Shown piece after piece: positions 40,416 to 50,772 of a DNA stretch of 64,000 nt (the first letter of the stretch is position 1; each line of letters begins with the position of its first letter). The notes beneath the pieces were generated by a model. The model ran no database searches and had not been told where the DNA came from. It was given only the letters and a program-made list of their open reading frames with translations. Origin of the DNA: Acaryochloris sp. CCMEE 5410. GTDB taxonomy: Bacteria > Cyanobacteriota > Cyanobacteriia > Thermosynechococcales > Thermosynechococcaceae. The stretch lies in NCBI RefSeq assembly GCF_000238775.2, contig NZ_AFEJ02000001.1, positions 3,906,001-3,970,000 on the forward strand, in the 5' to 3' direction. Both the position numbers and the translations under genes were made by a program.

Positions 40416-41469
40416 GACCTTATCGGAAATAACGTGGACACCTCGCAGAAGTGCTTTTTACTCTCACGTTTGTGATTAGGCAGTTCCCAATTGCCCGGTA
40501 GTTTTCCCATGACGGTGAGTCAACCGGAAATTATGAAGCCCACAAGCCGTTTCCATCACGTCATCAACATAATGGTCAACCCAATTTCTAAATCTCTGAA
40601 CCACTATCTGACAGCGTTTAATCCCCCCAATTTGATGCTCCACCTCCACTCGGACCTTTGAAACTTGTCGATTTTCCTCTTTCTGCGGATCTGTCAATTC
40701 TGCTTTTTGAGGTTTCTTCTTTGGTTGCTTGATGCTCACTCCGTCTGGGGCAAATCCTTGGAACCCAGTATCTTGCCAAAGCTGACTCCCTTCTGGGAAC
40801 TGATACCCTTCCTCATCAGCAATCTTCTTATCATGCTTTTTGCCTTCATAGGTGTCACTCAAAAACAACACCTTGCCTCCCCGTTCGCTGATGATCTTGT
40901 TTTTGACCGTATGGGCTTTTTTCTTGCCACTGTAATAAATCTTGCGGTCTTTCTTATCCTTCGGTCGATTGATGGGGCGTTCGGTCCCATCAATCATGAA
41001 CTCTAAGCTCGGGCAAACGTCGAGTACTGCTTTTAGGTTCGCTGGTTCTCGCTCTGGGAGCTGTTTCTCATAACCTAAGGCTTGATTGAGTACACCACTG
41101 AGTCGATGGATCCATTCATTCGCTTGAGCTTGACTCATTCCAAATAGATATCCTTGGACTTCTTGGGTCGGATATAGGCGAAAGTACACCAAGATAAATA
41201 GCAACTTATCCTCAAGGCTTCTCAAATGAGCTGTCCTCCCACCACCGTAAGCCCGTTTGCGTCCTTCGCGCTGAAATGTTTCTTGCACAAATGTTTCCCA
41301 GGCTGACTGAAAGCTGACCAAGAGCGTTGCAAACTCGTGAACATTGATGCTGGTCAAGCTTTGTAAAACCCGAGGTTTATCCTGAAGCTCTTCAAAGCTC
41401 ATTTTCATACTTATACTTCAGCACTGAATGACGATACTCAATTCTAAATGCTTAATTCCGATAAGGTTT
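40416..41469 (-). mobile_element. IS5-family (ISL2-type) insertion sequence (1054 bp)
   Basis: Ends are inverted repeats: AGACCTTATCGGAAATAA at the left and, reversed, AAACCTTATCGGAATTAA at the right. The trinucleotide AAT is directly repeated at 40413-40415 and 41470-41472, fitting the ANT duplications of the ISL2 group. The single transposase frame is intact, so the element may be active. Confidence 0.85.
40476..41408 (-). CDS. IS5-family transposase (intact)
   Basis: The 310-residue transposase has an N-terminal helix-turn-helix region (LFILVYFRLYPTQEVQGYLF, MSQAQANEWI) and a DDE domain: MIDGTERPI (first Asp), LWQDTGFQGF (second Asp), and VRVEVEHQIGGIKRC (Glu). The basic YYSGKKKAHTVKNKI stretch is typical. 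No frameshift is seen. It fills the IS almost end to end. Confidence 0.93.
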   Translation of the reverse strand: MKMSFEELQDKPRVLQSLTSINVHEFATLLVSFQSAWETFVQETFQREGRKRAYGGGRTAHLRSLEDKLLFILVYFRLYPTQEVQGYLFGMSQAQANEWIHRLSGVLNQALGYEKQLPEREPANLKAVLDVCPSLEFMIDGTERPINRPKDKKDRKIYYSGKKKAHTVKNKIISERGGKVLFLSDTYEGKKHDKKIADEEGYQFPEGSQLWQDTGFQGFAPDGVSIKQPKKKPQKAELTDPQKEENRQVSKVRVEVEHQIGGIKRCQIVVQRFRNWVDHYVDDVMETACGLHNFRLTHRHGKTTGQLGTA

Positions 41470-42525: not shown

Positions 42526-43941
42526 TTATGATCGAGGAAGCGGCAGCGCGATCGCAAAGCATGTCTTTCCCGGTGCAGATTCCACCATCAGGCTGCCACC
42601 ATGGCGATTTTCAATGATCCGACGGACGACATCCAGTCCCAATCCCGAGCCCTTCCCCATGGGTTTGGTGGTAAAAAACGGTTCCAAAATGCGAGTTTTA
42701 ATCTCAGGCGGGATGCCCGGACCATTATCCTCCACTTCAACTCGGATACAGCTGTTCTTTTGACAAGTCCGAATTGTAATTTTAGGTGGTTCGGAAGTGG
42801 GAGGGCTTTCCCCTAAAGCGTCGATGGCGTTATCCAATAGATTGGTCCACACTTGGTTCAGCTCACTGCCAAAAGCCATCATTTTAGGGAGGTCTTGGTC
42901 ATAGTGACGGTCAACCTTGATGCCATGCTTGAGCTTGAATGCAAACAAGCGCAGTGTATCTTCAATACCATCATGGATATCCACCTCTTGCTGGGCCGCC
43001 CGATCCATATAGGAATAGGACTTCATGGACTGCACTAGCGTCGAGATTCGCTCAGCCCCATCTAAACCTCTGAAGATCATCCCCATGACGTCGAAGGAGA
43101 GCGCCAACCACCTCAGGCCCATATCCCGTAGTTCGGTATTACTATCACGCCAGCGGTCCATGAGTTGTTCAAGGATGTCAGGCTCTACTTCTCCTGCAGC
43201 GAGTGGTTCAGCCAACTTCCAAGCTTCGTCAACCCCATAGTCCTCTAGCCAGTCAGTCAGGGCATCTTCTCGATCCCCCAAGACTAGGGGATCATTTTGG
43301 GGATGGGCAATGGCATTAAAACCGTGATCTCTTAGCGCCAACCATTCCTGAGTATGCTCATCATCCACTTGGTGTTGACCATACACCAAATTCATTCGTT
43401 GCAATTCCAGAATGGCGGGTTTCACGTCTTTCAGTACCCGCACTAGTGCGGCTGCCGGGTTGTTGAGTTCATGGGCCAGTCCTGCTGAAAGTGTTCCTAA
43501 CGCAGCCATTTTTTCCCGGCTTTGAATAAAAGATTCTAGGCCGCGTAGCCGCTTCTCCATGGTGCGAAAAATGTCTTTTTCAAAGTCACGGCAACTATGG
43601 AGCACCTCTAAAAAGTCAGGACAATTGAGTCGATAGAGGTCGGTATTAGTATCAGCCGTGAGCGTAACAGGGACTAAATCTTCCGTCAGGCATTGAATTT
43701 CCCCAAAGAAAGATGGACTCACATGGCGACCCACGGGCATATCTGCCCCATTGCTGTTGCGGCTTACGGTAATTTGGCCGCTGACTTGGATAAAAAAGCC
43801 CAGTGGGGGCTCGCCTTCTCGGACGAGGACTTCACCTGGGGTTAAGTGGATATGTTGTGTGCGATCGCAGATCCAATTCAGGCGTTCTGGAGGCAGTGTG
43901 CGAAAGACTTCTATCTGGGTCAAAGTGTCTGGACAAAGCAT
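42526..43941 (-). CDS. Sensor histidine kinase with N-terminal cyclic-nucleotide-binding domain
   Basis: The 471-residue protein begins with a cNMP-binding roll (LTPGEVLVREGEPPLGFFIQ, SFFGEIQCLTED) and continues with a histidine kinase core: H-box LSAGLAHELNNPAAAL, N-box VWTNLLDNAIDAL, and GSGLGLDVVRRIIENRHGG. All catalytic boxes are intact. No membrane helix is visible, so it senses a cytoplasmic signal. It lies 29 bp downstream of the receiver/flavoprotein gene on the same strand, an operon that probably pairs kinase with receiver. Confidence 0.93.
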   Translation of the reverse strand: MLCPDTLTQIEVFRTLPPERLNWICDRTQHIHLTPGEVLVREGEPPLGFFIQVSGQITVSRNSNGADMPVGRHVSPSFFGEIQCLTEDLVPVTLTADTNTDLYRLNCPDFLEVLHSCRDFEKDIFRTMEKRLRGLESFIQSREKMAALGTLSAGLAHELNNPAAALVRVLKDVKPAILELQRMNLVYGQHQVDDEHTQEWLALRDHGFNAIAHPQNDPLVLGDREDALTDWLEDYGVDEAWKLAEPLAAGEVEPDILEQLMDRWRDSNTELRDMGLRWLALSFDVMGMIFRGLDGAERISTLVQSMKSYSYMDRAAQQEVDIHDGIEDTLRLFAFKLKHGIKVDRHYDQDLPKMMAFGSELNQVWTNLLDNAIDALGESPPTSEPPKITIRTCQKNSCIRVEVEDNGPGIPPEIKTRILEPFFTTKPMGKGSGLGLDVVRRIIENRHGGSLMVESAPGKTCFAIALPLPRS

Positions 43942-43970
43942 GGATTAATTGCCTATACATTGGGGATACG

Positions 43971-45635
43971 CTACAGGTTGGCTAAATGGCGATGAACAAA
44001 CTGGACGCAAATGGAGCCTTCACCCACGCCAGAGGCCACCCGTTTGATCGAGTTATGGCGCACATCACCCACCGCAAAAATGCCAGGTACGTTGGTTTCT
44101 AACAAGAAGCGATCGCGCTCCAGGGGCCAGCCTAACGATGTATCCACATCTGGCCCCGTACAAATAAAGCCCCGTTGATCTCGATATACCTGGTCGCCCA
44201 ACCACTCCGTACTGGGAGTTGCTCCGATAAAGATAAACAGGGAATTGGTCTCAAACGTTTTCACCTCATCGACCTGGGAATCCTTGACCAGAATCCGCTC
44301 CAGCTTCTCGCTCCCCTGAGCTTCCACCACACTATGAAACGGCAACACTTCAATGTTGTTTGTGCCATCGATTTGGTCAATCAGATATTGGGACATGCTT
44401 TTGGTGAGAGACTCGCCCCGCACCAATATGCGCACTGTCTTGGCAAACTTAGAAAAGTACATAGCTGCTTGGCCCGCTGAGTTGGCACCACCTACCACGT
44501 AGACCTCTTCGTTCGTGCAGGCGGCGGCTTCCGTTTGGGCTGCGCCGTAGTACACGCCTGCCCCCGTAAACTGTTTAATGCCAGGCATGTTTAGCCTACG
44601 CCAGGAGACCCCCAGCGCCAGAATTAAGGCATGACTGCTGATTTCGCTACCATCGGACAGCGTCAGAAAATGGTAATTGTTCTCGGTACGCAGGCTTTGG
44701 CCAGCTTGGGGCGTGAGAATTTCAACACCGAAGCGCTTGGCCTGGGTAACGGCGCGGCGGGCCAGGTCACTGCCGCTTAAACCAACCGGAAAGCCCAAAT
44801 AGTTTTCAATGCGAGAGCTGGTGCCCGCTTGGCCGCCAGGCGCTTCGCGCTCAATCATCACTGTACGCAGTCCCTCAGAGGCACCATAAACAGCAGCAGC
44901 CAACCCCGCTGGGCCACCCCCCACAATCACTAAATCGTAGAACGGCTTTGCCGCTTCGGTCGTTTGCCCCAGAGCTTGGGCCAGTTCTGTGACGCTGGGG
45001 CTCGTCAGTTTAGAGCCATCTGCTTGGATCACGAGGGGAAGGCAAGGATGATCCGCCTGGCTCACTTTTTCACCGGACAGACTGACCAACTGTTGGGCTT
45101 CAGGATCGCTTTCGATATCCAGCCAGCGGTAAGGAATTTGGTTGCGAGAGAGAAAATCGCGCAGGGCATGGGAGTCCGGGGACCAGCGATCGCTAATCAC
45201 TTTCACTCCCTTAAACTCTGGCTTAAAGCTCGCTTTCCAGTCGGCGATTAAGTCATCCAGAACGGGATACAACTTCTCTTCTGGCGGATCCCAAGGTTTG
45301 AGCAAATAGTAGTCCAGGTTGGCATCATTGATTGCAGATATCGCCGCATCGGTATCGGCATAGGCTGTCAGTAGCGCCCGCTTCGCAGCAGGAAAAATAG
45401 GGCTGGCCTGTTCCAGAAATTCCACCCCGCTCATACTGGGCATTCGCTGGTCAGCCAAGAAGAGCGCCACGGTATCGCCGCGCAGTTTGAGCTTCTGAGT
45501 CACATCCAGGGCACTGGTCCCAGAGTCAGCCCGCATAATGCGGAAACGATCGCCATATTGCTTGCGCAGGTCACGGGCGATCGCTTGGAGCACGGCTGGA
45601 TCATCGTCGATGGCTAGAATGACGGGCTTATCCAT
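43971..45635 (-). CDS. Receiver / glutaredoxin-like / thioredoxin-reductase-like fusion protein
   Basis: Residues 1-125 are a response-regulator receiver (LAIDDDPAVLQAI, phospho-Asp in FLADQRMPSMSG, YYLLKPW). Residues about 140-215 look like a glutaredoxin fold (GVKVISDRWSPDSHALRDFL) with no redox cysteines (SPDS in place of CPxC). From about 230 the rest matches thioredoxin reductase: VIVGGGPAGLAAAVYGAS, YVVGGANSAGQAAMY and FAVGDVRHNSIKRVASGVGE. The active-site CxxC is absent (TEAAAC), so it cannot reduce thioredoxin in the usual way. It is co-transcribed with the cNMP-domain kinase. Confidence 0.93.
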   Translation of the reverse strand: MDKPVILAIDDDPAVLQAIARDLRKQYGDRFRIMRADSGTSALDVTQKLKLRGDTVALFLADQRMPSMSGVEFLEQASPIFPAAKRALLTAYADTDAAISAINDANLDYYLLKPWDPPEEKLYPVLDDLIADWKASFKPEFKGVKVISDRWSPDSHALRDFLSRNQIPYRWLDIESDPEAQQLVSLSGEKVSQADHPCLPLVIQADGSKLTSPSVTELAQALGQTTEAAKPFYDLVIVGGGPAGLAAAVYGASEGLRTVMIEREAPGGQAGTSSRIENYLGFPVGLSGSDLARRAVTQAKRFGVEILTPQAGQSLRTENNYHFLTLSDGSEISSHALILALGVSWRRLNMPGIKQFTGAGVYYGAAQTEAAACTNEEVYVVGGANSAGQAAMYFSKFAKTVRILVRGESLTKSMSQYLIDQIDGTNNIEVLPFHSVVEAQGSEKLERILVKDSQVDEVKTFETNSLFIFIGATPSTEWLGDQVYRDQRGFICTGPDVDTSLGWPLERDRFLLETNVPGIFAVGDVRHNSIKRVASGVGEGSICVQFVHRHLANL

Positions 45636-46033: not shown

Positions 46034-46465
46034 TTAAAGGTAATCCGCAATGTCAAAAGCCTGACCGAATTCACTGATTTCTACGGCGTACTTATAAGCT
46101 TTGGCCGTATCTGCTGCTGAGATCCCGCTTGAACTATCCATACCCATTTTTTCCATAGTTTCTTTTACAAATCGAGGACTAACGGTATTCACTCTTAGGC
46201 TTGAACCTAATTCGAATGCAGCTGCTTTCGCGAACGCATCTAGAGCGGCATTGACAAGGCTGATCACTGCTCCCCCCTCCATTGGGTGTTGTGCCAAATA
46301 GCCTGATGATAAGGTAATGCTTCCTCCTTCGCGCACATATTTATTGCCTACCTGAAATAGATTGACCTGCCCCAATAACTTACTGTCAACGGATGATTTG
46401 ATCTGTTCAAAAGGGCCGCTCAAATCGGATCTCGATTGCCCCTCTTGTGCCAAAACCAGGCGCAA
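46034..46465 (-). pseudogene. Short-chain dehydrogenase fragment (N-terminus missing)
   Basis: The frame matches the C-terminal two thirds of a small (about 200-residue) SDR: KLLGQVNLFQVGNKYVREGG, SITLSSGYLAQHPMEGG and LRVNTVSPRFVKETMEKMGM. The N-terminal TGxxxxIG nucleotide loop is absent. Translating upstream on the minus strand in the same frame gives stops and no dehydrogenase sequence, so the 5' end has been lost. The usual catalytic Tyr-x3-Lys is not visible. Confidence 0.8.
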
Positions 46466-47205: not shown

Positions 47206-50200
47206 TCAGGCTTCATGAAGACTGTGATCTTCAATTGCCCCTAACGCTTTCAGCGTCGCTTGTTGAGCATGAGTGACACCTGTTATACCCGTGATATTCA
47301 TGCCTTCATAGGGGCCTGGCAAGTGCACCGTTCTCAAGCATTCCCCTGTATGAATATTCCAGAATTTGATGGTTTCATCACTCCCTCCACTGACGACCAT
47401 TTGACCGCAGGGACTAAAGACGACCGACCAGACAGAGCTGGTATGCCCGTGACAGATTTGGAGGCACTGGCCGGTCTGAATGTCCCAAATTCGAATGGTC
47501 TGATCAAAGCTACAGCTTGCTAAGAGGGTTCCATCCTGAGAAAAGTCAATGGCACTGATCAAATTCAGATGTCCAGTTAACTTATGACGGCACTGTAGGT
47601 CACTCAATGGTTGGAGGATCACCACTGGCTCACCAGCAGAAAAACTGGCTAGGAGATCACCCTGGGGTGAAAAGGCTAATTCGCCAACCCAGCCTGAATA
47701 TTCAAAGACTTCGCAACAGCTGCCATTCTCAACTTGCCAGAGTCGTAGTGTTTGGTCCATGCCGCCACTGGCGAGTAAACAGCCATCGGGCGAGAATGCA
47801 ACTGACCAAATCGCATTGCTGTGCCCTTGTAAACGTTGAGTACAGAGGCCAGCATTGACATCCCAGAGTTGCAAGTCTCCTAAGTCACTGGTGCAGGCGA
47901 GCAGATTACCGTCAGGGCTAAAGGTGATCGCTCGCGTGACATCAAAGGAAACGGGCAAGTTGGAATACAAGCGGTCGTTGTCTAAGTCCCATATTTTGAG
48001 CTTGTTGTCTTGAGCATATCCACCACTGGCCAGCAGATGTCCGTCTGGGCTAATAGCGACAGTCGACACAAAACCTTCTTGTTGATGGGCTTGTAGGCAA
48101 TCGCCCCTCTGGGTGTCCCAAAATCGAATCCATCCGTCTTGAGATCCACTAATGAGCCGATTCCCCTCTGGCGTAAAGACTAAAGACCAGACGGTATTGG
48201 TAAACCCCGAGAACGTTCTGAAACACTTACCCTTCGCAATATTCCAAAGACGAACGGATCGATCTTGACCGCCACTAGCCAATAGATTGCTGGAGTGAGC
48301 AAAAGCGACCGACCAGACCCAACTCGTATGATCCGTGAAGCAAGCGACACAATGACCGGAAGAGGTATCCCATAGTCGGATCGTGTTGTCTTGACTTCCA
48401 CTCGCGAGGGTTTGCCCATCGGCTGAGAAATCAACAGACACAATTGCATTGCTATGGCCAGATAAACTCATCAAGCACTGGCCAGACTGGATATCCCATA
48501 GGCGCATGGTTTTATCGTTGCTGCCACTGGCGAGATAATGGCTTGTAGGCGAAAAGGCAACCGACCACACCGTTTCGTTGTGTCCTTGAAAGGTGGTGAT
48601 GCACTGACCCGTCTCCAAATCCCAGAGCTTTATGGTGGAGTCCGCACTACTGCTGGCGAGATAGTGGCTTGTAGGCGAAAAGGCAACCGAATGAACCGGT
48701 GCATCATGCTCCTGCAGAACATTGAGGCAGCGACCCTCTGCAAGATTCCATAGACGAATCGTTTGGTCTGAACTGCAGCTGGCTAGAATATCACCCTCTC
48801 TGGAGAATGCAACGGACCAAATGGCATCCTGGTGCCCTGTCAAGGTATTAAGGCACTGTCCTGTATCGATATCCCAGATGCGAAGGGTGTGATCAAAACT
48901 ACCACTTGCGAGGCGATCGCCATTGGGAGAGAAGGCGATGGAGGAAATCCAGGCCGTATGCCCTTTTAGGGCTAACAGTTGTTGACCATTCGAGATTTGC
49001 CATAGATAAATATTGCCGTTGGCATCGGCAGCAGCCACGAGGGATTGAGCAGGGTTTAACGCGACGGCAAAGACCGCACCGAAAGTATGGGTGAACAGCG
49101 ATTGAGATAAATCTGACTCTGTGAAATTGACATGATGGAGCGAAATATCCTGTAGGTTGGCTTGCCAAATGGGGAGATGGGACAAATCATACCCACTGAG
49201 ATCTGTACCGATCTGGCGCAGTAAATTGATAATGTTGCCTGGTGTATAGCCTGCTTGCACGATAGGTTGATGTCGAAGGTGGTCTAGCAGTTTTGTGAGG
49301 TGATCGGCAATGGCTTGCGTATTGCCCAAGGTGATCAGCAGTTGGTCTAAGACGGGCTGCAAAATTAGACCGGTTTGGATATCTCGTAAATAATCTTTGG
49401 CTTGAGCTTTGACAATCGCGAGTTGACTGCATAAGGACACGTCTTGGCTGAGTAGCTCATAACTAATCTGCTGGGTGAGTTTGCGAATGACAAACTCCAT
49501 CACCACAGGCTGTTGAGTATATTGACCCCGTCGCGATTCAATTAAACACCGGGATACGAGGGATTCTAGTGCCTCTAAGAGATGGGCGGTGGTTATGGTG
49601 GGTATGAGGTCTGTTTTTAGGTCTAGGGTGGTGGTCCATTCTCGGTTGATGGCGAGCCAGTACATTAAAAGTCTTTCTAATGGAGAAAGTCGCTCAAACT
49701 GTTGATTCAGTAAACGTCGGACTCCGCTGAAAATAATGGTTTCTTCGGCTAGGAACTGGGCAATATCACTGTCAAATAGGTCATGAATGGAGCTGGCAGT
49801 AATCTTCAAGGCTAAGGGACTACAGCCATAAGATTCACATAGGGTTTGTTTCTCCTCAGCCGTTCCCTTTAACTGCTGATTCTTGACTAACGCCAGGGCC
49901 ATATCTAAAGCCCCACCAATGGTTAGGGACCGGACCGGTAGCTCGACGCCTTCGAACATTGCGATCTCAGCTGGCTTTTCTCGACTCGTGAGTAGCACAC
50001 AACTTTGGTGCTGGGATTCACCCACAACCCGGAATAGCTCTGCGTAGTCTTCATAGCCAGGTCGATAGTATCCCGTCTGCTGCTCTGGCTGCAAAATGGT
50101 TTCGATATTGTCCAGAACGACTAAACAGCGAGCAGTTTGCAGACATTGCAACAGCAGTCGTATATCTGTTTCTAAGGGTTGCTGATGGGACAGAAAAGGC

Positions 50201-50772
50201 ACCAGTTCTCCTAGTAAGGAGGTTAAATACGGGGCGTTACGCAGGGACCGCCAAATGATAAAGTCGAATTCCTGTTGCAGTTGCTGAGCTAATTTGACCG
50301 TTAGCGCGGTTTTGCCAATGCCGCCCATGCCCAGAATGCAAAGGAGCCGACAATGGTCAGTTCTCACCCACTGGCCCAAGGTGGCTAATTCTTCAACTCG
50401 GCCATGAAAGATGGAGACGTCCATGGCTTCCCCCCAATCTTGCTGAGGTCTTGAAATTGTTGTCGGGAGTGGTGTTTGATCCGCTGTTGGTTTAGGGGAG
50501 GGTGAAGTATAGTCTGATGATGTTAGATCAAGTCCAAAAGTATTGAAGTAAGCTTTCAGGGTTTTACGATCGACGGCATGTTTGCAGGCTCGAACTTTGC
50601 TGAGGGTGTTCGGGCTGAGCTGAGTCAGCTCTGTCAAATCTTCGATGGTGTAAGGTAATCCATTATTGTTGGCGGCTTCGAATTGGTGCTGGGCCTCTTG
50701 GAGTCGCTGCCAGCCCTGGGGAGAAAGAACCACACCTCGCTTACGTTGCGAACGGCTTTTGGCCCTAGACAT
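47206..50772 (-). CDS. NB-ARC STAND ATPase with 14 WD40 repeats
   Basis: Residues about 1-85 form a helix-turn-helix-like N-terminal domain (YTIEDLTELTQLSPNTLSKV). An NB-ARC ATPase follows: Walker A ILGMGGIGKTAL, Walker B CLVVLDNIETIL and VLLTSREKP. A short helical and pentapeptide-like linker (SGYDLSHLPIWQANLQDI) leads to 14 WD40 units from about residue 560 to 1160, such as GHTAWISSIAFSPNGDRLAS; that is two seven-bladed propellers. Such proteins are signalling or defence switches in multicellular and large-genome cyanobacteria; the trigger is unknown. No effector enzyme domain is recognisable. Confidence 0.93.
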   Translation of the reverse strand: MSRAKSRSQRKRGVVLSPQGWQRLQEAQHQFEAANNNGLPYTIEDLTELTQLSPNTLSKVRACKHAVDRKTLKAYFNTFGLDLTSSDYTSPSPKPTADQTPLPTTISRPQQDWGEAMDVSIFHGRVEELATLGQWVRTDHCRLLCILGMGGIGKTALTVKLAQQLQQEFDFIIWRSLRNAPYLTSLLGELVPFLSHQQPLETDIRLLLQCLQTARCLVVLDNIETILQPEQQTGYYRPGYEDYAELFRVVGESQHQSCVLLTSREKPAEIAMFEGVELPVRSLTIGGALDMALALVKNQQLKGTAEEKQTLCESYGCSPLALKITASSIHDLFDSDIAQFLAEETIIFSGVRRLLNQQFERLSPLERLLMYWLAINREWTTTLDLKTDLIPTITTAHLLEALESLVSRCLIESRRGQYTQQPVVMEFVIRKLTQQISYELLSQDVSLCSQLAIVKAQAKDYLRDIQTGLILQPVLDQLLITLGNTQAIADHLTKLLDHLRHQPIVQAGYTPGNIINLLRQIGTDLSGYDLSHLPIWQANLQDISLHHVNFTESDLSQSLFTHTFGAVFAVALNPAQSLVAAADANGNIYLWQISNGQQLLALKGHTAWISSIAFSPNGDRLASGSFDHTLRIWDIDTGQCLNTLTGHQDAIWSVAFSREGDILASCSSDQTIRLWNLAEGRCLNVLQEHDAPVHSVAFSPTSHYLASSSADSTIKLWDLETGQCITTFQGHNETVWSVAFSPTSHYLASGSNDKTMRLWDIQSGQCLMSLSGHSNAIVSVDFSADGQTLASGSQDNTIRLWDTSSGHCVACFTDHTSWVWSVAFAHSSNLLASGGQDRSVRLWNIAKGKCFRTFSGFTNTVWSLVFTPEGNRLISGSQDGWIRFWDTQRGDCLQAHQQEGFVSTVAISPDGHLLASGGYAQDNKLKIWDLDNDRLYSNLPVSFDVTRAITFSPDGNLLACTSDLGDLQLWDVNAGLCTQRLQGHSNAIWSVAFSPDGCLLASGGMDQTLRLWQVENGSCCEVFEYSGWVGELAFSPQGDLLASFSAGEPVVILQPLSDLQCRHKLTGHLNLISAIDFSQDGTLLASCSFDQTIRIWDIQTGQCLQICHGHTSSVWSVVFSPCGQMVVSGGSDETIKFWNIHTGECLRTVHLPGPYEGMNITGITGVTHAQQATLKALGAIEDHSLHEA

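Follow-up and report, generated by a model that had tools for sequence, protein, structure and literature searches.

What can a protein with the fold of a thioredoxin reductase (TrxR) do once the cysteines of its disulfide relay are gone, and how is it linked to the histidine kinase encoded beside it? This question is raised by two neighbouring genes in a 64,000-nucleotide stretch of the genome of Acaryochloris sp. CCMEE 5410 (contig NZ_AFEJ02000001.1, positions 3,906,001 to 3,970,000), here called the window. The list of open reading frames (ORFs) places both on the minus strand. The first encodes a flavoprotein in which a receiver domain, a glutaredoxin-like (Grx-like) domain and a TrxR-like module for flavin adenine dinucleotide (FAD) and NAD(P) are joined. 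The second, downstream gene follows after a gap of 29 bp (43942-43970) and encodes a kinase with a cyclic nucleotide monophosphate (cNMP)-binding fold (Table 1). The original prediction, made from the sequence of the window, proposed such a two-gene redox signalling unit, and both genes and all named domains were indeed recovered where it had placed them. The arrangement is real; it cannot be put down to chance because it recurs in several phyla. We consider it reasonably probable that the pair represents a two-component system with an enzymatic output, i.e. that the kinase controls an FAD/NAD(P)H oxidoreductase which works by direct flavin chemistry.

The source genome (8.09 Mb in 23 contigs) holds one full-length copy of the flavoprotein. 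Its TrxR-like part matches Pyr_redox_2 (residues 233-540), and residues 145-222 match the mycoredoxin profile TIGR02200 with an E-value of 4.8e-9, yet under the curated cut-off. In the kinase, cNMP_binding (PF00027, residues 32-115, 1.6e-13) lies above the cut-off and HATPase_c covers residues 360-469.

Cysteine loss across the flavoprotein family

Relatives of the flavoprotein were collected from several samples. With the flavoprotein as query, 21 of 386 genomes from its phylum matched at E <= 1e-60. These 21 include the source genome itself, cNMP-type relatives as well as three genomes whose copies are broken. In these three genomes, which belong to the class of the window, the flavoprotein gene is broken or split (L026, L027 and L028/L031; loci carry the prefix L). 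A scan with one genome per species gave at least 586 confirmed relatives. The 80 best loci were retained, and they span Cyanobacteria, Chloroflexi, Acidobacteria, Bacteroidota, Actinobacteria, Gemmatimonadota and others. A profile of alignment A1 (E <= 1e-110, each count including the genome at the centre of the sample) found matches in 23 of 249 genomes in the phylum of a Caballeronia locus (L069), 50 of 246 in that of an actinomycete locus (L095), 36 of 247 in that of a Dyadobacter locus (L066) and 38 of 199 in that of a Bryobacteraceae locus (L059). By the counts of the L095 and L059 samples, the family is common. L010, which comes from a genome of the window's class, has a core identical in sequence to the one of Kastovskya adunca (L037). 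After removal of the canonical TrxR of the source genome (L002), the broken copies L026, L028 and L031, the core-less loci L003-L008 and L027, and 10 duplicates, 211 distinct core proteins remained. They comprise 168 with a receiver (receiver-type), 37 in which a cNMP-fold domain is fused to the core (cNMP-type) and 6 with neither.

The TrxR site of the window protein reads YYGAAQTEA, compared with FCATCDA in the intact relative L120, and the Grx site reads RWSPDSH instead of DWCPDCR. Hence, both parts lack their cysteines as originally predicted, and the proposed check of conservation among homologues gave a clear result: CxxC at the canonical reductase site occurs in only two of the 211 proteins, L120 and L123; both come from one genome, score low and have no receiver or cNMP domain. 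In the other 209, the site is usually YGAAxTEA or near to it, Tyr363 is invariant (209/209) and Glu369 almost so (207/209). Glu369 aligns with the acid after the second Cys of the L120 site, and Cys373 with a Tyr of L120. In the Grx-like domain, Ser152 replaces the first Cys in 183 of 211 proteins and a lone Cys at position 155 is found in ten family members, while Pro200, which we take to be the cis-Pro position of the thioredoxin-like fold, is kept in 210 of 211. Judged from these alignments, the cysteine loss is a trait of the family. Recent decay in the source genome alone was set aside, since the altered site is common to the whole family.

The FAD, NAD(P) and receiver motifs are intact and conserved across relatives, again in line with the original prediction. 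At least 99 of 100 relatives have the glycines of the FAD motif (G239, G241 and G244); in the NAD(P) motif, G382, N385, S386, A387 and G388 are each found in at least 209 of 211 proteins and G383 in 186, and R406 is kept in 209 of 211. Each of the receiver residues D10, D11, D62, T90 and K113 is present in at least 91 of 94 receiver-type relatives. Two motifs of thioredoxin reductase for the binding of thioredoxin, GR/KG and FF, are listed in the available part of PMC9025218. The FF motif is absent from all 209 proteins and from the window protein, which has GAG in place of GR/KG; Arg or Lys stands at position 359 of that site in 45 of 209. A kinship to the cyanobacterial DDOR/FFTR proteins was rejected, as these keep CxxC and lack the NADPH motif present here (PMC9025218, in part).

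The simplest history would be that both cysteine pairs were lost once, in an ancestral Grx-TrxR fusion. Such a fusion is encoded by L120 (1396-2685, plus strand), an intact glutaredoxin (CPDC)-thioredoxin reductase (CATC) protein which groups with the family. The tree comprised 86 rows, namely 41 of the 168 receiver-type proteins (that of the window and 40 random ones), all 37 cNMP-type proteins, and three canonical TrxRs among the rest; 18 of its 83 inner branches were left open. L120 joins the family as against the three canonical TrxRs with a value of 91 (not starred) in the Shimodaira-Hasegawa-like approximate likelihood ratio test (SH-aLRT), and the family's own branch reaches 100.

The neighbouring kinase and its signal

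A kinase of the window's type is encoded within 1.5 kb of 151 of the 168 receiver-type flavoproteins, of none of the 37 cNMP-fused ones and of one of the six with neither domain. The flanks of the relatives extended to approximately 1.5 kb with mechanical ORF calls, so that absence of a kinase means none within this distance, and the kinase-finding profile was built from the kinases beside the first 111 loci, which had been found with the window's kinase as query. Fisher's test on this difference in proximity gives 6e-28, but 151 of 168 versus none of 37 is to be read as one evolutionary contrast, because a single switch between the two architectures suffices for the tree. Better evidence of linkage is that the adjacency survived rearrangement: among the best 80 loci, Bacteroidota have the kinase upstream, as do single loci of Gemmatimonadota and Balneola; in most other groups it lies downstream, and three cyanobacteria have it in divergent orientation. 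In the alignment of 77 kinases, which takes in ORFs of 351-560 aa only, His157 is kept throughout and the N and G boxes nearly always. It is thus very probable, judging from conserved residues and gene order, that the adjacent kinase is the cognate kinase of the flavoprotein, as had been suggested. By its acidic receiver pocket and the nearby kinase, the flavoprotein is a putative response regulator with an enzymatic output.

The arginine which binds phosphate in the cassette of CRP (presumably Arg82 of CRP) was found at its position in none of the 77 aligned kinases, and an Arg stands beside this position in four. Likewise, the pattern R[STAG]A is absent from all 37 cNMP-fused relatives. Because the CRP-fold domain of the kinase lacks this arginine, cAMP appears unlikely as its signal, and a cAMP-responsive kinase was set aside.

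For the pair we propose the following sequence of events. The CRP-fold domain would sense a signal, probably other than cAMP, whereupon the kinase would autophosphorylate at His157 and pass the phosphate to Asp62 of the receiver; this transfer is inferred because the residues and the adjacency are conserved. Phosphorylation of Asp62 may then alter the activity of the FAD/NAD(P)H oxidoreductase of TrxR fold. Since both cysteine pairs are missing, the usual disulfide relay of TrxR is impossible, and reduced FAD most likely hands its electrons straight to an acceptor through the vacated Cys/thioredoxin site, which would be lined by Tyr363, Glu369 and usually Cys373. The Grx-like domain may now be used for docking or regulation. 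In the cNMP-fused relatives, a like input would reach the same core within one chain, without a phosphorelay.

Catalysis by the core and its alternatives

Structure prediction is compatible with such a role. The AlphaFold model of the flavoprotein (59 sequences) has a mean predicted local distance difference test score (pLDDT) of 89.9 and a predicted template modelling score (pTM) of 0.79, and its residues 229-554 best match the thioredoxin reductase 4a5l (Z 33.7, root-mean-square deviation (rmsd) 2.0 over 305 residues). Compared with TrxR of L. lactis, the model lies closer to 5mh4 (rmsd 2.7) than to 5mjk (7.4), which their entry titles assign to the flavin-reducing (FR) and the flavin-oxidising (FO) state, respectively. 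The same holds for E. coli TrxR, with 2.8 for 1f6m and 7.7 for 1tde, which we take to be the flavin-reducing and flavin-oxidising states. Wherever two states of one enzyme were among the matches, the model fits the FR state better than the oxidising one, and an FR-like pose would suit a protein which does not need a cysteine-facing state. Ferredoxin/flavodoxin-NADP reductases (FNR) of the TrxR type have a TrxR fold devoid of CxxC, in which a C-terminal extension covers the FAD; FNR entries matched the model with Z of 27.5-27.9, below the TrxRs. The Grx-like domain modelled alone (pLDDT 86.9) matches BC3987 (Z 11.4), cGrx1 (11.3), NrdH (10.5) and Mrx1 (9.4), and Foldseek ranks ArsD first (1.8e-4), followed by Mrx1 (2.0e-4).

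Several observations weigh against a kinase-controlled enzyme of direct flavin chemistry. One concerns ATII-TrxR, a published protein of 552 aa with a cNMP domain at 13-146 and TrxB at 234-522, 87% identical to a C. metallidurans protein. According to the available text of PMC6544261, the native enzyme contains 1.87 FAD, has a Km of 5.2 uM for NADPH and 4.2 uM for NADH, and reduces 5,5'-dithiobis(2-nitrobenzoic acid) (DTNB; kcat 5.6 per s) and thioredoxin (28 per s). Cys206-Cys223 and Cys376-Cys467 are named there as redox centres, and the term CxxC occurs nowhere in this text. Cys220, 237 and 390 of the Caballeronia protein L119 map to Cys206, 223 and 376 at one offset, as do Cys249, 266 and 419 of ORF L263 from C. 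metallidurans CH34, although the fitting offset in L263 falls off any start codon. L119 Cys390 and L263 Cys419 align with Cys373 of the window protein, and Cys467 of ATII-TrxR matches neither L119 nor L263. From the domain coordinates and two Cys spacings (17 and 153) given in this part of the source, ATII-TrxR is probably a cNMP-type member of the family. By analogy, its data support FAD binding and the use of NADPH and NADH by the family, and they indicate that some disulfide route, perhaps via Cys373, may exist within it. Furthermore, a CxxC is present in 17 of the 209 proteins at other positions of the core (three places in all), and 17 of 168 receiver-type loci have no window-type kinase within 1.5 kb, three of these 17 having fewer than 600 bases on one side. 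The two architectures are separated by a single switch on the tree, the branch of L120 is flagged as long and its placement is unsure, and the FR-like pose comes from a cofactor-free AlphaFold model.

These points bear first of all on the idea that the protein is still a disulfide reductase, gated by phosphorylation, which works through the single Cys373 or by direct transfer from flavin to disulfide. The turnover of ATII-TrxR with DTNB and thioredoxin (PMC6544261, in part) speaks for it, as do the spacing which its Cys206, 223 and 376 share with cNMP-type relatives and the presence of Cys373 in all 37 cNMP-type and 130 of 168 receiver-type proteins. However, the other 38 receiver-type proteins lack Cys373, every Cys column besides 373 is filled in at most 41 of 100 relatives, the FF motif is missing throughout, and ATII-TrxR was produced in E. 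coli and is presented in the available text without a cysteine mutant. On balance, we regard this route as rather unlikely for the window protein. The claim that the flavoprotein is not a thiol reductase is tentative in view of the thioredoxin reduction reported for this probable relative.

The original prediction had also offered a flavin-based sensor. In such a sensor, the redox state of FAD or the occupancy by NAD(P)H would be the input and the receiver would report to the kinase. The FAD and NAD(P) sites, kept despite the loss of the catalytic pair, would agree with it. Since the 37 cNMP-fused relatives replace the receiver by a CRP-like fold and have no window-type kinase within 1.5 kb, the effector appears to be the core, with the CRP-like fold as the sensor; moreover, chemistry at the former active site is suggested by its near-invariant residues Tyr363 and Glu369. 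Hence, we regard the core most probably as an output enzyme to which a CRP-like sensor is connected either directly or by way of the kinase, and a sensor function of the core itself is improbable. We attach still less credence to a pseudoenzyme, i.e. a dead TrxR fold serving as scaffold or phosphorylation-dependent binding module: both cysteine pairs are lost and the Grx-like domain keeps only its fold, but cofactor and site residues are near-invariant over several phyla, and ATII-TrxR has FAD and NAD(P)H turnover (PMC6544261, in part).

Beyond the kinase-controlled oxidoreductase of the window, we tentatively suggest a wider role, namely a widespread two-component output which directly switches the redox chemistry of the cell. 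A cysteine-less flavin enzyme descended from a Grx-TrxR fusion would use NAD(P)H with O2, quinone or a dedicated partner, perhaps the small zf-UBP protein whose gene is a neighbour in some genomes, as acceptor; this use would be gated by receiver phosphorylation, with a CRP-like-fused version in parallel.

Neighbouring features and known systems

The features of the window are collected in Table 1.

Table 1. Genes and domains of the window, with their positions and the basis of each assignment
Feature	Position	Strand	Basis
Receiver + Grx-like + TrxR-like flavoprotein, 554 aa	43971..45635	-	ORF; Pfam Response_reg + Pyr_redox_2; AlphaFold2 mean pLDDT 89.9; TrxR fold best Z 33.7
Receiver domain, residues 6-118, phospho-acceptor Asp62	45282..45620	-	Pfam Response_reg 1.7e-13; D10/D11/D62/T90/K113 conserved
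Glutaredoxin-like domain, residues 145-222, S152-P-D-S155 replaces CPxC	44970..45203	-	TIGR02200; Mrx1 2lqo 8.1e-9; Z up to 11.4
TrxR-like FAD/NAD(P) module, residues 233-551; CxxC segment replaced by 362-373 YYGAAQTEAAAC	43983..44939	-	Pfam, structure match, site alignment
cNMP-fold histidine kinase, 471 aa, His157, without cassette Arg	42526..43941	-	ORF; Pfam cNMP_binding 1.6e-13, HATPase_c 2.6e-25
Short-chain dehydrogenase fragment, probably a gene remnant	46034..46465	-	Matches only positions 77-198 of 200 of the best profile
Transposase	40476..41408	-	DDE_Tnp_4 domain
1188-aa protein, NTPase-like with WD-repeat C-terminal half	47206..50772	-	By eye

In other genomes, the gene of a zf-UBP zinc-finger protein (usually of approximately 90-120 aa by ORF) lies at most 1 kb from 18 of the 168 receiver-type flavoproteins (L012, L053, L064, L066, L067, L072, L074, L076, L079, L081, L087, L090, L095, L100, L109, L168, L170 and L179) and from 12 of the 37 cNMP-type ones (L121, L126, L127, L130, L132, L135, L138 and L227-L231). 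At L053 (3226-5361, minus strand), a Na+/H+ exchanger carrying a TrkA-N domain is joined to the zf-UBP domain, and the gene of this fusion diverges from the receiver-TrxR gene. A Gly-Gly C-terminus was not found in the flavoproteins beside zf-UBP genes. A zf-UBP protein was rejected as part of the window's unit because no match to this domain turned up at E <= 0.001 in the source genome.

Among 13 plasmid records which match the window protein, eight are annotated as FAD-dependent oxidoreductase (one with an ATP-binding protein beside it), three are unannotated, one is a hypothetical protein and one a cyclic nucleotide-binding thioredoxin-disulfide reductase. The latter label is doubtful because thioredoxin chemistry in the manner of TrxR cannot run. 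Searches of open-licence papers turned up no account that we recognised of cysteine loss throughout the family, of the link to the kinase or of the altered cNMP cassette, an absence which proves little.

The pair of the window is conserved and uncharacterised, and the fusion itself is already in print. The available part of PMC5847659 names the combination of receiver and TrxR 'Mycobacterium-like', and the window protein, having the same receiver and TrxR-like module, fits this class; that part merely lists the fusion and is silent on the missing cysteines, the Grx-like domain and the partner kinase. ATII-TrxR, which as far as the available text goes has the same domain spacing and three of its four named cysteines spaced alike, probably belongs to the cNMP-fused sister group, but it lacks a receiver and is described as a thioredoxin reductase (PMC6544261). 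With bacterial low-Mr TrxB, the window protein shares the fold and the FAD and NAD(P) motifs (E. coli TrxR 1f6m, Z 32.1, rmsd 2.8 over 310 residues), but neither CxxC nor the FF motif for thioredoxin binding. L120 has the same order of Grx and TrxR, but keeps CPDC and CATC and has neither a receiver nor a cNMP domain. Mrx1 (2lqo) is the closest solved sequence relative of the Grx-like domain (8.1e-9 by profile), which differs by Ser in place of both cysteines and so falls outside the Cys definition (CPxC/CPxS) of glutaredoxins and mycoredoxins. DNA, proteins or second messengers are the usual targets of response regulators; in the pair described here, the phosphorelay appears to gate a flavin oxidoreductase.

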